Source of the DNA: Mesoflavibacter sp.
GTDB lineage: Bacteria > Pseudomonadota > Alphaproteobacteria > UBA8366 > Aestuariispiraceae
Assembly (NCBI GenBank): GCA_017792345.1
Contig: CP051228.1
Coordinates: forward strand, 1,178,001-1,242,000
DNA: 64,000 bases
Direction: 5' to 3'
The notes beneath the pieces were generated by a model, which saw only the letters and a program-made list of their open reading frames with translations, did not search any database and was not told where the DNA came from. The stretch's first letter is position 1. Each line of letters opens with the position of its first letter. Below are positions 39,592 to 62,612 of this stretch, in pieces. The position numbers and the translations under genes are program-made.

Positions 39592-40095
39592 ATGGGACGG
39601 ACCATCCAACCGGGGTTTGAGTTTGGCACCGCATTCCTGTCGGATTGCGGTGACGATATTCGCGAAATCTACCACTACTGGAATGACCGGCGCGGCTCCC
39701 GGCGAAGCCCGTCCCGGTCGGATATCGATCCCCTGGACTTTCACAGACTGCTTCCGGGCATCACCCTTCTGGCCGTCGTTTCCACCGACCCGCTGGACCT
39801 TCTCTATAAGGTGGTCGGCACGCGGGAAGTCGCCTTTCGCCGGCGCGATCCGACCGGCCTCACGGTGTCCGAGGCGTTTCACGGTCCCAGCCCGGAAAAC
39901 GCTCTGCGGAGCTATGCCGCCGTCATTGAGCGGCACGAACCCCTGTTCCGCCGCGACGCCTTACGCAGCCTGACCGGCAACATGGTGCGGGAAGAAAGGC
40001 TCTTCCTGCCCTTATCGGCTGACGGCGAGACGGTGGATCAAATTCTTCTCTATGCAACGGACCATAGGGAAATCCCCGAATCCTTCGGACTCTAG
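39592..40095 (+). CDS. PAS-domain (PAS_5-like) protein
   Basis: A 167-residue protein with one PAS-like domain of the PAS_5 type common in Rhodospirillales. YHYWNDRRGSRRSPSRSDIDPLDFHRLLP is the distinctive start (about residues 28-56), followed by a LYKVVGTREVAFRRRDPTG core. No output domain is attached, so it may be a small sensor or a structural adaptor. It lies between gshA and the tandem GGDEF/EAL-like genes and shares their direction; a signalling link is possible, but there is no direct evidence. Confidence 0.8.
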   Translation: MGRTIQPGFEFGTAFLSDCGDDIREIYHYWNDRRGSRRSPSRSDIDPLDFHRLLPGITLLAVVSTDPLDLLYKVVGTREVAFRRRDPTGLTVSEAFHGPSPENALRSYAAVIERHEPLFRRDALRSLTGNMVREERLFLPLSADGETVDQILLYATDHREIPESFGL

Positions 40096-40225
40096 GCCCC
40101 GGCATCGTCGATTTTCCGGGACGCGGGATTCTTTTTCCGCATCACGCAGACGCCTAACCGAATATTAACCCCGTGCCCGATACACTTCCCGGACCCGACC
40201 TGTTTGACCGATGGAGTTAAGCGGC

Positions 40226-41638
40226 ATGTGCGCGAAGAAATGTGGCTCTATGACGGAATTTCTGTCCCTTGTAGGGACGGCAGAGGGATCCGAGTCGCTG
40301 AATCTTGGCCAGATCGTCTGCTTGGGGGCCGAGGATCTGAGAGAACGGCTGGGCGATGCGCGGTGGGCAAAGGCGCAAGACCATATCGGCGACACGATCG
40401 AAAAGGCGATCGGGGAGCATTGCGGCGCGCGAGACGCCTATTTCAAATGCCGCGACGCGTCCTTTCTGATCGTTTTCGCATCGCGCAGCGCCGACAAGGC
40501 GGAGCTGGTTTCCGCCGCAATCGCCAATGCCGTGAACAAGATCCTTATGGGAACGGAGGAACTGCGCGCGGTCACGGTGCGCGGCATCAGCCAATCCGGC
40601 CGCAACCTCACCTTGTCGGCGGCCAAGGACCCCCAGGGCATTTTGAACGCCCTGCAAAGCAGGGCGCATAGGGTCTCCATCAGCAACGACGACCATGAAC
40701 CGGCGGCCAACCGGGACCGCCCGGCGGTTTCGACACCCGCCGCCATCTCCTCGGGTGCCGTCTCTCAGGCCGCCGTCTCTCAGGCCGCCGGCCGCGCCGG
40801 CGCCGGCGGAAAGCTGCCGTCCATTCCGAAAGGCAACCGCGCGGAGCTTCTGGCCAAGTTGAGCGTCATCAAGGATGCGCCGGTCGAATTCCGGTTCCTG
40901 CCGATCTGGTTCAACGGCGAACGCAAGATCTGGACGTTCAATTGCGCGCCCATGCGCCCGTCGACAATGGTGGGCGAAACGACATGGAATTACGGGGTTC
41001 TTGGCGCCAATCCGCAGATATCGGAAGTGGTCGACCTGGATATCGCCGCGTTGGAACATGGCCTGATCGAACTTACAGATCATTTGGTTGCCGGGCGCGA
41101 ATGCCAGTTGGTGCCAAACTTCCATTTCGAGACACTGACGAACTATCGCGGCCGGAACGAAATTTCGTCCTTGCTGAGCGCACTGCCGCAACGCCTCCGC
41201 CAGAGCATCCTTCCCAATGTGATGTATGTGCCGCAAGGGGTTCCGGATGGGCGACTGACGGACATCACCGGTCACCTGAAGCCCTTCTGCAAGGAAATCG
41301 GGGCAATCATCGTGCCCAGCAAGCTGGAAGGGGACGTCGTCCGTTCATTGACCCGCCTCAAGTCCTGCGGCTTCAATGGCATCTTCGTCAGGGCCAACCA
41401 GACGATCACCCGCAATCACATGGATTGGATCCTGCATGTGATCGACAAGATCAATGCGATCGGCGGCGTCTCGGGCGTCACCGCCATTCCGGACGACGAG
41501 CATATGTTCAAGCTGGCTTACAGCGCCGCAAAGGTTTGCGCCGGCCAATCCCTCGGCGGACCGTTCGAAACCATGCCGGCACCGTTCGAATTCGATGCCA
41601 GAAAGCTAGAAAAGACTGATCTTGCCGCCATCGCATAG
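40226..41638 (+). CDS. Tandem paralogue A: degenerate GGDEF-EAL-like protein
   Basis: A 470-residue soluble protein. In the first 100 residues, GQIVCLGAEDLRERLG and the CRDASFLIVF strand-loop-strand (75-84) can be laid over a GGDEF domain, with RDASF (76-80) in the place of the GGDEF signature. A linker (about 150-205) with a repeated SQAAV unit leads to a region (about 220-455) that resembles an EAL domain. In it, FRFLPIWFNGERKIWTFN, LDIAALEHGLIELTDHLVAG and a final GGPFETMPAPF fall in EAL-like order. The catalytic EAL, second Glu and DDFG residues are missing, so activity is unlikely. The start at 40226 has GGAG nine bases upstream. Assignment is an inference. Confidence 0.55.
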   Translation: MCAKKCGSMTEFLSLVGTAEGSESLNLGQIVCLGAEDLRERLGDARWAKAQDHIGDTIEKAIGEHCGARDAYFKCRDASFLIVFASRSADKAELVSAAIANAVNKILMGTEELRAVTVRGISQSGRNLTLSAAKDPQGILNALQSRAHRVSISNDDHEPAANRDRPAVSTPAAISSGAVSQAAVSQAAGRAGAGGKLPSIPKGNRAELLAKLSVIKDAPVEFRFLPIWFNGERKIWTFNCAPMRPSTMVGETTWNYGVLGANPQISEVVDLDIAALEHGLIELTDHLVAGRECQLVPNFHFETLTNYRGRNEISSLLSALPQRLRQSILPNVMYVPQGVPDGRLTDITGHLKPFCKEIGAIIVPSKLEGDVVRSLTRLKSCGFNGIFVRANQTITRNHMDWILHVIDKINAIGGVSGVTAIPDDEHMFKLAYSAAKVCAGQSLGGPFETMPAPFEFDARKLEKTDLAAIA

Positions 41639-41680
41639 TCACCACCGCACAGTCCGGCAGTCAGGTAGAAGTTTGCAGAC

Positions 41681-43027
41681 ATGGCCCCTCAGAAACTAGA
41701 CGGTATGGATAAGATCCTGGGCGCGGTGTCGTCGCGCTCCGGGGAATCGGATTTCAATCTCGGACAGATCATTTGTATCGGGATCGACGACCTGAAAGCG
41801 CGCCTGGGGGAGGAACGCTGGAACCATTCCCAGGCCCTGGTTTCGCAATTGATCGAGAAGGCCGTTCAGCGCTATTGCGGCCCGAAGGACATGTATTGCC
41901 GCTGCCGCGACGCGTCCTTTCTGATCATATTCGACACGTCGGAAGAACTCGAAGCCCGAACCGCCGCAACCAATATCGCCGGTTTCGTCAACCGGTCGCT
42001 GTTCGGGTCCAGCGACACGCAGGGCCTCAGCGTGAAGAGTGTCGTCCATCCCTGCCGGGCCCAAACCGCTTCCGCGCCCTCCGCCGACGACACGCCCGCG
42101 GCTTTCCTGAACGCCTTGGAAGAGCGCGTCACCGAGGTCAAAAGGAAACCGCCGAGTGAGACGGCTGCGGCGCCTGTGGACGCTGCGCCATCCGGCAAGG
42201 CCGCCCCGAAGGAATCCCAGAAATTCGAAAGCCGACGCAACGAACTTCTGGATAAGCTGGGCGCCGTTCAGGGTGGCGAGATCGAATTTTGCTTTGTACC
42301 GCTCTGGCGCATCGGTGAGCCCAGCGTCGGGTCCTTCGTATGCCTGCCGACCCGCAGTGCGCCGCTGTCGGACCGCCCCGACTGGGGATATGACGTGCTG
42401 GGTGCCGATCCGGATGTCACGCGGATCGTGGAACTGGACATCGCGGCGCTTGAGCGCGGATTGTTGGAAATGACGGAGCATTTGCTGAGCGGCCGGGAAT
42501 GCAACTTTGCCGCCAGCTTTCATTTCGAAACCCTGGCCAACCGCAAGGGGCAGGAGGAAATCTTCGCGCTGTTGAAGGAACTGCCGCACCATATCCTGGC
42601 CCGGCTGCACGCCGTGGTAACGGATATTCCGGAAGGCGTGCCAGATACCCGCCTGTCGCTTCTGACCTCGCCGCTGCGGAACCATTGCCGAAAACTAAGC
42701 GCGGTCCTGCCGATGACCGGCATTCGTGTTCAGCCACAGAACGTGTTGGCCAAACTGCGCAAGGCGGGATTCTCCGGCATTTTCCTGAAGCTGACGTCGG
42801 AATCCAAACAAGACGTGGAAAGCGCCATCTGCTTCGGCGAGGCGGCAAGCAAGACCGGCGTCGAAGCCGGCGTCACCCACATCATGGACGAGGACATCCT
42901 GATCAAGCTGGCCTACAGCACCCTGCAATGGTGCTCGGGAACCGCGATCGGCGGCCCCTATGCCAAAATGCCCGCGCCCTTCCGTTTCGACGCGAGCAAT
43001 CTGGAGAGCCATGAGGCGGACGACTGA
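41681..43027 (+). CDS. Tandem paralogue B: degenerate GGDEF-EAL-like protein
   Basis: A 448-residue protein and clear paralogue of the gene 42 bp upstream. Shared blocks include NLGQI at 26-30, CRDASFLIIF with RDASF again at exactly 76-80, LDIAALERGLLEMTEHLLSGRECNF, FHFETLAN and a final GGPYAKMPAPFRFDA. Overall layout is the same: a GGDEF-like N-terminal part, an Ala/Pro/Lys linker, and an EAL-like C-terminal part without the catalytic residues. The pair most likely arose by tandem duplication. If the fold is right, they could bind c-di-GMP or act as partners rather than enzymes. No membrane segment or signal peptide is visible. Confidence 0.55.
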   Translation: MAPQKLDGMDKILGAVSSRSGESDFNLGQIICIGIDDLKARLGEERWNHSQALVSQLIEKAVQRYCGPKDMYCRCRDASFLIIFDTSEELEARTAATNIAGFVNRSLFGSSDTQGLSVKSVVHPCRAQTASAPSADDTPAAFLNALEERVTEVKRKPPSETAAAPVDAAPSGKAAPKESQKFESRRNELLDKLGAVQGGEIEFCFVPLWRIGEPSVGSFVCLPTRSAPLSDRPDWGYDVLGADPDVTRIVELDIAALERGLLEMTEHLLSGRECNFAASFHFETLANRKGQEEIFALLKELPHHILARLHAVVTDIPEGVPDTRLSLLTSPLRNHCRKLSAVLPMTGIRVQPQNVLAKLRKAGFSGIFLKLTSESKQDVESAICFGEAASKTGVEAGVTHIMDEDILIKLAYSTLQWCSGTAIGGPYAKMPAPFRFDASNLESHEADD

Positions 43028-43036
43028 CCGCCCGCC

Positions 43037-43735
43037 CTATCCTTCCAGCAGGTCCGCCAGATCCTTCGGCTTCGCAATCATCGCGTCGTGGCCGCAGGCG
43101 ATCTCATGGATCGGCCAGCCCAGATCCTTCGCCCGTTCGCGGTGGGCCGCCAGTGACGAATAGACCGGTGCCGTCGCCATGATATAGGCGACGTCCAGCC
43201 CGGCCCCCGGGTCGCCGTCGAAGTCGATCGCCGTCTCATAGGTGCGCAGCGGATGCGGCGTCAGATGCCGGTCGATGAATTCCACCTGCTTCGCGTCGGA
43301 AACACCGAAAGCGGCGGCCGGCGGACAGGGCAGGCAGGGCACGCCGACATGGTCGATCACACCGGCCCGGCGTTCGGCCCAGACCTTGGGCGGCACCGTC
43401 TCGCACGGCGCGACGCCGCTTTGCGGCACCATGGCGTCCAGATAGATCAGCTTCGCGATCCGGTCCGGCACGCGCGCCGCGGCGCCGGTGATGACATTGC
43501 CGCCGAAGGAATGACCGACCAGAACGGTGTCGGTCATGTTTTCCGCCTCCAGATGGGCGACCAATTCGTCGACCCAGGTCTGAAGCGTGAGCTCCGGCGA
43601 CAGGAAATGCGCATTCTCGCCCAGGCCCGACAGGACCGGCCGCGACACGCGATGCCCGCGTTCCCGCAGCAGCGGCGTGACAAAATCCCAACACCAGGCG
43701 CCATGCCAGGCGCCGTGCAACAAGGTGAAATTCAT
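43037..43735 (-). CDS. Alpha/beta-hydrolase (salicylate esterase/hydroxynitrile lyase-like)
   Basis: A 232-residue alpha/beta-hydrolase. FTLLHGAWHGAWCWDFV (about 3-19) is the oxyanion-hole segment typical of the HNL/methylesterase-like branch. The nucleophile elbow VGHSFGGNVITGAA is at about 72-85, and HEIACGHDAMIAKPKDLADLL near the C-terminus has the catalytic histidine. Such enzymes act on small esters or similar substrates; no specific one can be named. It converges on the tandem signalling genes with only 9 bp between stops. Confidence 0.84.
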   Translation of the reverse strand: MNFTLLHGAWHGAWCWDFVTPLLRERGHRVSRPVLSGLGENAHFLSPELTLQTWVDELVAHLEAENMTDTVLVGHSFGGNVITGAAARVPDRIAKLIYLDAMVPQSGVAPCETVPPKVWAERRAGVIDHVGVPCLPCPPAAAFGVSDAKQVEFIDRHLTPHPLRTYETAIDFDGDPGAGLDVAYIMATAPVYSSLAAHRERAKDLGWPIHEIACGHDAMIAKPKDLADLLEG

Positions 43736-43899: not shown

Positions 43900-45252
43900 C
43901 TATTCGGACAGCCGCACAAGCTCCATCCGGGCGATGCAGGAATTGCCGCTGGGCGCGGAGATGCTGCCCCAGCCGCTGCCGTCGCCGACATTCAGGACCG
44001 TGCGGCGGCGCGGATAATAGCCCCAGCTGCCGATATAGGTTTCGACCGTGGCCGAACCGCCGTCCGAAATCTGGATCTTCAAATCCGCCCGGCCGCCTTT
44101 TTCGGAGCGCATGTCGCCCTTGAACCGGCCGTTGCGGATCGACAGGTCCTGGCTGCCGGATTCCCCGGCCCGGCACCAATCCGAATGCGCGAAGCCGGAT
44201 TCGACCTCCCAGGTGAACCGCCAGGTCCCGTCATAGGGATGGGAGGGCGCGGTCACCGGCGCCGGTGGGGCAGCGGGTGCGGCGGGGGCCGCGGGGGCCT
44301 GACCCAGCGCCGCGATCTTGGCGCTGGCCAGCGGCGCGTAGAGACCGTCCGGAAAGGCCTGCAGATAGCTTTCCAGCTGAACCTTGTCGCCGCTATCCGC
44401 GACCGAGTTCCAGAAGGCGATTTCGGCGCTGCGGTCCGGTTCGGCGGAAACGGCAGGCGCGGCGGCGGCCACAACGGGCGGCGCGGGTTCGGCCGGCGGG
44501 AAGAAATAGAAATCCCCGGTCAGGGACGAGCTTTCCCAGGGCACCTGCCGGTTGCCGGTCCGTTCCATGACCGAAATGCGGACCTGTTTGAAGACCTGCT
44601 CCACCGGCAGGCCGGGCGTGCGCAGGGTCCGCGCCAGGGCGGCGGTATAGGGGCTGTTGCGGTCCGTCCCGTCCGCCGCCACCTCTCCCGGCGCGGTGGA
44701 ATAGGCCAGCAGGGTGCCATAAGGGGCATCGACCCGCGCCAGGCCGCGCGTGCCCGAGCGGCTCACCGCCGGGAAGGGATTGTTGCGGCAGGCATCCAGC
44801 ACGACGAGGTTCAGCCGGTTCCCGGCGCTTTCCAGGCTGCGCATCACCGTATCGATTTTCAGCGATTGGATTTCCAGATCCAGCGCGTCCTGAATATCGG
44901 CATCGACGGGGATCAGATAGTTCTCGCCCTCCGCCTGGACCGCGTGGCCGGCGTAATAGACCATGCCCACCGTGTCGGGGCCGGACGCGGCCAGCCGCCG
45001 CGCGAAATGAACCACCGCGCGCTGCATGTCGCGATAGCCCAGATCGGACGCCTGCGTGACGTCGAATCCCGCCTCGGTCAGCGACCGCGCCATCAACCCG
45101 GCATCGTTGACCGGATTGGCCAGCGGCCCGATCGCGTAATCCGAATTGCCGATCACCAGGGCCAGACGGTCCTCCGCCCGGGCTGTGCCGCCGCCCATCG
45201 CGCCGACCGAAAAGACCGCCACAAACGCCAGTATCGTCAGAACCGTCCGCAC
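43900..45252 (-). CDS. Exported caspase-family (C14) protein
   Basis: A 450-residue protein from a GTG at 45252 that follows a GGGGGAG site. It begins with a signal peptide (about residues 1-26, ending ARAED). The caspase fold follows: LALVIGNSDYAIGPLANPVNDA (split at LANPVNDA), the catalytic histidine in VYYAGHAVQ (His103) and the catalytic cysteine in LVVLDACRNN (Cys155). After a Pro/Ala-rich linker (about 335-355), a C-terminal domain of about 100 residues looks beta-rich. The fold points to an Arg/Lys-directed cysteine protease, located in the periplasm. A longer TTG start lacks a ribosome site. Confidence 0.87.
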   Translation of the reverse strand: MRTVLTILAFVAVFSVGAMGGGTARAEDRLALVIGNSDYAIGPLANPVNDAGLMARSLTEAGFDVTQASDLGYRDMQRAVVHFARRLAASGPDTVGMVYYAGHAVQAEGENYLIPVDADIQDALDLEIQSLKIDTVMRSLESAGNRLNLVVLDACRNNPFPAVSRSGTRGLARVDAPYGTLLAYSTAPGEVAADGTDRNSPYTAALARTLRTPGLPVEQVFKQVRISVMERTGNRQVPWESSSLTGDFYFFPPAEPAPPVVAAAAPAVSAEPDRSAEIAFWNSVADSGDKVQLESYLQAFPDGLYAPLASAKIAALGQAPAAPAAPAAPPAPVTAPSHPYDGTWRFTWEVESGFAHSDWCRAGESGSQDLSIRNGRFKGDMRSEKGGRADLKIQISDGGSATVETYIGSWGYYPRRRTVLNVGDGSGWGSISAPSGNSCIARMELVRLSE

Positions 45253-45445
45253 CGCTTCTCCCCCGCCGTTTTCGGACCGGAAAAGTCTATGGAAGAACCG
45301 GGGACGCTTCAACCGGGGGCGGGACAATCCGACAAATCAAGGTTGTAAACCACAGCCTCTACAGCCCGTTTACCATTCTATATTGCAGTGGAATATGATT
45401 AGATGACCATTGTCGGCCGATGCAGGCAGGGCAGAGGAGGGGGTC

Positions 45446-61841: not shown

Positions 61842-62612
61842 TTAGCTTTCGGCGTCGCGATCCGCGCGGTCGAGCGCGTCCAGCGGCGATTCCCCCGATT
61901 GCAGGTCCGTGCGTCCGACCGACAGGCTGCCCGGCCGAAGTTCGACCGTTTCCACCGAATGATCGATCGCCGCGGCCAGGGCGTGGGCCAGGGCCTCCGC
62001 CCGGGCCAGGGCCGCATCGCCATGCAGTCCGGTCAGCAGGACAGCGAACTCCCCGTCGCGCAGCCGGCAGGCGGGTTCCGCCGGATCGACCGCGCCTGCC
62101 AGCGCCCGGGACAGGATCCGCTCTGCCCGGTAGGCGGCGGCCAATCCCACCCGGCGGCGGAAATCCTCGAATCCGTCGATCCGCAAGACCGCGACTTCGC
62201 TGCGCACGCCTTCGCGCTGATCCAGCAGTTCCAGATGGCGGGTTTCCGAAAAGAACTCGTCGCGCCGCAATAGGCCGGTATCGGGATCGTGGCGACGGGC
62301 CTCCTCGGCACGCGCCAAACGCTCTTCAGCCGCCTCCAGCGCCTCGTGCAGACGGGCTAGATCGGCGGTGAACGTCCCGATGACCTGGCGCGTCGCCTCG
62401 TCGCTTTGTTCCAAATCCAATCCGTGGACGCGCACGGGGTCGGCGGACTTGCGCCCGGAATCCAGGCTTTCCCGCCAGGCGTCCAGCGCGTCCCATTCCC
62501 GTTCGGACGCGCTGCGCGGATGCGACGCGGCGGATCGCGCCGCCGGGTCGATGGGCATCCTGCGCGGTACCTTGGCCGGGTCGCGCGGCAGATTGGTCTC
62601 ATCCGTCTTCAT
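61842..62612 (-). CDS. GGDEF-domain protein with altered signature (RDGEF)
   Basis: A 256-residue cytoplasmic protein. A charged N-terminus and a helical region (about 75-105) lead to a GGDEF-like domain. HDPDTGLLRRDEFF (about 109-122) is the usual start, and CRLRDGEFAVLLTGL (about 183-197) occupies the position of the GGDEF strand but reads RDGEF, losing one of the two glycines. Such a domain is probably not a working diguanylate cyclase, though it could bind nucleotide or act as a scaffold. A TATAAT box (on the minus strand) is so close to the ATG that a nearly leaderless transcript is possible. Confidence 0.7.
   Translation of the reverse strand: MKTDETNLPRDPAKVPRRMPIDPAARSAASHPRSASEREWDALDAWRESLDSGRKSADPVRVHGLDLEQSDEATRQVIGTFTADLARLHEALEAAEERLARAEEARRHDPDTGLLRRDEFFSETRHLELLDQREGVRSEVAVLRIDGFEDFRRRVGLAAAYRAERILSRALAGAVDPAEPACRLRDGEFAVLLTGLHGDAALARAEALAHALAAAIDHSVETVELRPGSLSVGRTDLQSGESPLDALDRADRDAES

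Follow-up and report, generated by a model that had tools for sequence, protein, structure and literature searches.

Two adjacent genes in the window (the whole 64,000-nucleotide stretch of DNA analysed here) appear to follow the domain order of GGDEF-EAL proteins and lack the signature residues of both domains. The question raised by this locus is what such proteins are: enzymes in decay, receptors of c-di-GMP, or proteins which have taken on another role in signalling.

The tandem pair and its predicted fold

The first gene, P0001, occupies positions 40226 to 41638 of the forward strand and is followed on the same strand by P0002 (41681 to 43027; 448 aa), both being open and intact. The reading frame of P0001 opens at 40211, with a likely start at 40226 that gives a protein of 470 aa; this start is favoured by a GGAG located 5' of the ATG at 40226 and by alignment with the gene of the sister species. 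Residue numbers of P0001 are given here in the numbering of the 40211 frame, except those of the RDASF motif. In this numbering, a degenerate GGDEF domain (approximately residues 27 to 130) is joined by a variable linker of low model confidence (approximately 131 to 206) to a degenerate EAL domain (approximately 207 to 470), and the same layout is found in P0002. Only some 22 to 27 residues precede the GGDEF-like half in the two proteins, and a maximal 19-residue hydropathy of 1.1 leaves no membrane helix, indicating that both are soluble.

P0001 and P0002 are full-length paralogues, with a BLASTP identity of 36% across 465 columns (309 bits, E 3e-105), a likeness far beyond chance. The two neighbouring colinear genes described in the sequence-only reading are therefore real, as are the finer similarities it listed. 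RDASF stands at residues 76 to 80 of both proteins (codons 40451 to 40465 in P0001, counted from the 40226 start, and 41906 to 41920 in P0002, both on the forward strand), and the C-termini match as GGPFETMPAPF and GGPYAKMPAPF. The absence of the GGDEF, EAL and DDFG signatures was also seen correctly, with no canonical motif present in either protein.

Neither protein gave a match to PF00990 or PF00563 up to E 10 in the Pfam search, nothing passed any Pfam or NCBIfam cut-off, and no significant PDB match was obtained with phmmer. The best sub-threshold NCBIfam match of P0002 was to LapD (NF045673; E 0.0011, 17.4 bits vs a cut-off of 1020). With hhalign, profiles of the two halves of the family defined below were set against profiles built from genuine GGDEF and EAL domains encoded in the window's genome. 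The N-terminal half matched GGDEF (probability 86.5, E 4.6e-6) and the C-terminal half matched EAL (probability 97.2, E 4.1e-11, 229 columns), the two matches being colinear and covering nearly whole domains, while the decoys (crossed GGDEF/EAL comparisons and a REC profile) reached probabilities of only 0.1-0.4. In single scans at E<=0.01, Pfam EAL (PF00563) was matched by seven of 44 relatives (best 9.7e-11) and Pfam GGDEF (PF00990) by two of the 44 (best 9e-8).

AlphaFold2 models were computed from six sequences, namely the window pair and four proteins from the loci of relatives; this shallow alignment, together with an EAL strand that can be read in two registers, limits structural claims at the level of single residues. 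Mean pLDDT was 70 for P0001 and 75 for P0002, with most of the EAL half at 80-92, and the models contain eight EAL strands and a disordered linker. In Foldseek searches against the PDB, the best match of both proteins was the LapD GGDEF-EAL dual domain 3pjw (E 7.9e-13 for P0001 and 3.8e-14 for P0002), followed by other GGDEF-EAL proteins; unrelated folds were not seen. Full-length TM-scores were modest (~0.4-0.5, compared with 0.6-0.7 for EAL-only targets), which is what a different relative placement of the two domains would produce. Both the profile-profile and the structural comparison thus bear out the order of blocks, GGDEF then EAL, which had been proposed from the letters alone.

Loss of catalytic and ligand residues

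The window proteins were aligned site by site with genuine GGDEF and EAL domains from their own genome. RDASF fills the five GGDEF columns in both proteins, and the metal-binding aspartate is replaced by glycine (G39 in P0001 and likewise a glycine in P0002); in this alignment the signature of an active diguanylate cyclase, GG[DE]EF with the metal aspartate, is absent from both. The I-site RxxD has become GxxD, with D75 kept in P0001 and the arginine position taken by G72, again a glycine in P0002, and the receptor motif of the PopA and PelD type is consequently missing from the GGDEF-like half of either protein.

The EAL phosphodiesterase set tested comprised ExLxR, N, ExTE, DDFG, K, EGVE and Q. 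Only N303, the asparagine of the vNvS strand, is retained by P0001, and P0002 retains no catalytic residue at the aligned columns. The E of ExTE, both D, the K, the E of EGVE and the Q are gone from both proteins, and ExLxR reads CxPxR or NCAPM. The two readings arise from the two registers of this strand, one residue apart in the union alignment, and the catalytic glutamate is missing in each.

These alignments support the view that P0001 and P0002 are catalytically dead GGDEF-EAL proteins. The earlier description of the pair as pseudo-enzymes accordingly stands, by virtue of both fold and motif loss; its further suggestion that they may bind c-di-GMP is disfavoured. Canonical turnover or binding of c-di-GMP appears unlikely, since the EAL, DDFG, KID and QG residues have been lost, as has the arginine of the I-site, and since ExLxR has been described as determinative for c-di-GMP binding by inactive EAL domains (PMC10333796). 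Escherichia coli CsrD, which carries ExMxR, is listed in the same review as not binding c-di-GMP (PMC10333796).

Family, selection and gene neighbourhoods

A genome-contig scan with P0001 alone returned no relatives. With a family profile, P0001 and P0002 score 554 and 538 bits, both being among the model's own rows, and family members range from ~60 to 550 bits, whereas the canonical GGDEF/EAL proteins that the window's genome encodes reach at most 24 bits. Of the 28 genomes searched with the profile at the level of the order, 13 carry members; for the class Alphaproteobacteria the figure is 86 genomes among the 387 sampled (55 of 263 genera). In the phylum sample, all of the matches listed belong to this same class. 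Carriers include Pacificispira spongiicola and Marivibrio halodurans (Aestuariispiraceae) as well as plasmids of Azospirillum lipoferum 4B (AZO_p3) and Azospirillum sp. B510 (pAB510c), where the proteins are annotated as 'hypothetical protein'. These two plasmid genes (L170:5884-7176 and L171:5908-7197; 243 and 233 bits) lie just upstream of the [NiFe]-hydrogenase maturation genes HyaD/HybD, HypC, HybE and HypA, and in A. lipoferum genes for HupU and for the large subunit of a hydrogenase are located upstream.

The family has no Pfam or NCBIfam model, which agrees with the sequence-only reading, to which no named family with this pattern was known, and no description of it was found in the literature; it is apparently unnamed. 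Degenerate GGDEF-EAL proteins as a kind are already known. What appears to be new is a deeply diverged family with its own motifs and an association with kinase and REC-EAL genes. Other degenerate proteins of the window's genome were also noted, including two weakly matching EAL proteins with degenerate motifs (G000:C1:1997287-1997811 and G000:C1:4142656-4143315; Pfam EAL scores of 41 and 67 bits; L037 and L036, respectively) which fall outside this family, and a degenerate-looking GGDEF protein within the window (approximately 61854 to 62291, reverse strand; 37 bits to PF00990) in which RDGEF replaces GGDEF.

The motifs peculiar to the family, CxPxR, HFETL and PxGxPxxRL, lie in the EAL half, and P0001 and P0002 combine them with a full-length match to the profile. 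Counted over 44 divergent members, the conserved residues of this half are P231 (41), W233 (38), C245 (30), P247 (32), D277 (41), H305 (35), T308 (37), L309 (40), P341 (39), G343 (30), P345 (35) and R348 (35). HFETL occupies the NvSxxxL site of real EAL domains, and PxGxPxxRL follows the ExTE strand. In the predicted models the motifs would sit at the C-terminal ends of strands 2-4, which in EAL enzymes form the face bearing the active site. In comparison with the sister species (G003), dN/dS was 0.09 and 0.04 in the two domains of P0001 and 0.43 in its linker, and 0.04 and 0.06 in the domains of P0002, the orthologues being ~80% and 87% identical. The genes of the pair are not decaying and are under strong selection.

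No kinase, receiver or phosphodiesterase gene lies beside the window pair, and the same is true of its closest stand-alone orthologues. A gene for a PAS_5 protein (39592 to 40095, forward strand; Pfam match) is indeed present upstream, as had been remarked, and has an orthologue in the sister species. Its standing as a conserved neighbour did not survive comparison. In the sister species, two opposite-strand genes (cytochrome bd subunit-like by eye) part it from the pair, and the 21 kb surrounding the pair of Pacificispira yielded no orthologue. This separation, together with 22 PAS_5 matches in the window's genome, makes the link weak; the PAS_5 protein was set aside as a functional partner, and its gene is probably incidental and outside the system. 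On the other side, a convergent alpha/beta-hydrolase-like gene (43037 to 43735, reverse strand) adjoins the pair in both the sister species and Pacificispira, and marks the conserved locus, with no functional role proposed for it. Next to this gene the window also encodes a protein that looks caspase-like (peptidase C14) by eye (43900 to 45327, reverse strand; conserved, at 78%, in the sister species).

The tandem pair itself is conserved in the sister species. In Pacificispira, where a pair stands beside the same alpha/beta-hydrolase gene, each copy is the closest relative of the other in the tree, with full support, which indicates a separate duplication or gene conversion there; a single old duplication behind all tandem pairs was thus not borne out. 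Further adjacent family pairs were found at three loci (L117, L125 and L154), and a dimeric function could fit such repeated duplication in tandem.

Among relatives more generally, a receiver-domain gene was found within 200 bp of 20 of the 66 family genes and a histidine kinase gene within 200 bp of eight; four of the 66 proteins are themselves fused to REC. From the 58 receiver matches over cut-off in the window's genome (4.9 Mb, with ~4,600 genes assumed), an adjacent receiver gene would be expected for ~2.5% of genes, vs the ~30% observed (20/66); the excess is clear, and its size is rough, given that the background comes from one genome and that the loci share descent. At six loci (L112, L117, L118, L126, L139 and L162) the family gene is accompanied by a REC-EAL gene and a large sensor-kinase-type gene. 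By Pfam, the kinases of L112 and L117 contain PAS, HisKA, HATPase and REC, and the REC-EAL architecture is confirmed for L112, L117 and L118. The EAL motifs of the REC-EAL partners are intact or nearly so. One of the six, L126 (G000:C1:3220000-3234000), belongs to the window's genome, at a distance of ~2 Mb, and consists of a large receiver-bearing protein (the kinase-type gene, of which profiles detected the receiver part alone), a REC-EAL protein with intact motifs, a family member of 505 aa (L083, a distant relative at 63 bits) and a single receiver protein. Approximately 70% of the sampled relatives have no adjacent receiver, kinase or phosphodiesterase gene. A second kind of conserved neighbour was observed in two relatives, from a MAG and from Marivibrio, where a PAS-LuxR type regulator is divergent from the family gene (L060:9074-9784 and L061:8991-9791).

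Proposed role and comparison with known systems

Considered together with fold, loss of motifs, selection and family spread, the neighbourhoods of relatives favour the "structural partner" of the sequence-only reading over c-di-GMP binding. P0001 and P0002 are probably soluble, dead GGDEF-EAL interaction modules of c-di-GMP or two-component signalling, maintained under strong selection. They would act by protein contact, as scaffold, adaptor or allosteric partner, the catalytic motifs of the EAL half having been swapped for CxPxR, HFETL and PxGxPxxRL. In several relatives the module is fused to REC or encoded next to it, and shares an operon with a hybrid histidine kinase carrying PAS and with a REC-EAL phosphodiesterase that is intact; there it may dock on the phosphodiesterase or the kinase through its GGDEF and EAL surfaces, and such docking may couple phosphorylation to output. 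The window pair would then be orphan copies which form homo- or heterodimers and do the same job on a partner encoded elsewhere, presumably with no part for c-di-GMP binding. YdiV and CsrD provide precedents for a role through protein contact (PMC10333796), and strong heteromers of degenerate GGDEF domains have been reported in E. coli (PMC5635695).

A wider proposal is more tentative and less likely than not, namely that this large, unnamed family has recast the whole GGDEF-EAL tandem as a new interaction or ligand module, with conserved motifs of its own on what was the active-site face, and that it serves as a dedicated dead partner of receiver/REC-EAL circuits and has been repeatedly duplicated in tandem. 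If the partner reading is right, many species hold at least one dedicated dead GGDEF-EAL partner of kinase/REC-EAL circuits, and the family would offer a natural test case for the change from enzyme to scaffold and for the role of new motifs on an active-site face. Counts of c-di-GMP proteins in Alphaproteobacteria miss this family, which lies below Pfam/NCBIfam detection.

Three other explanations have to be weighed. A degenerate receptor of the LapD/FimX type would lack catalysis, bind c-di-GMP through its EAL half and relay the signal to partners. LapD likewise has a degenerate GGDEF followed by a degenerate EAL domain, provides the nearest solved fold for both proteins and is the sub-threshold best NCBIfam match of P0002; moreover, one of the two strand registers keeps an arginine in CxPxR and P0001 keeps the vNvS asparagine. 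This explanation is nevertheless unlikely. The ExLxR motif, decisive for binding by EAL receptors (PMC10333796), is replaced in either register, the remaining EAL ligand residues are lost from both proteins and the I-site has no arginine, and the inner-membrane anchor and periplasmic domain of LapD have no counterpart in the window proteins. FimX (REC-PAS-degenerate GGDEF-degenerate EAL) ranks high in Foldseek, and some family members are similarly REC-fronted, but it binds c-di-GMP through its EAL domain, whereas the window proteins have neither PAS nor ExLxR.

Slightly less likely still is that the old active-site face was rebuilt as a pocket by which the proteins sense another small molecule. 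The conservation of the three motifs in 44 divergent members and their position where EAL catalytic residues reside, at the ends of strands 2, 3 and 4, would suit such a pocket, but this placement comes from the predicted model alone and the motif residues could also serve folding or protein contacts. That the genes are recently decayed, non-functional GGDEF-EAL remnants would account for the loss of all catalytic motifs, but can be rejected as highly improbable in view of the open frames, a domain dN/dS of 0.04-0.09, the high identity of the sister orthologues and the family-wide conservation of new motifs.

As a putative soluble partner acting by contact, the family resembles several known proteins in part. 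CsrD/MshH, a degenerate GGDEF-EAL partner in RNA decay, also has both domains inactive, but CsrD carries a GAPES4-HAMP membrane N-terminus, whereas the window proteins stand alone, and the motif loss is far deeper in the latter. The anti-FlhDC proteins YdiV and STM1697 have an EAL fold with neither catalysis nor c-di-GMP binding and work by protein contact, in their case with FlhD4C2 (PMC10333796); compared by description, they are EAL-only proteins from gammaproteobacteria, and the window proteins add a GGDEF-like half. Pairs of a hybrid kinase and a REC-EAL protein of the RocR/VieA type are encoded beside relatives of the family, where the REC-EAL proteins are phosphodiesterases with intact motifs and the family member constitutes an extra, dead GGDEF-EAL component.
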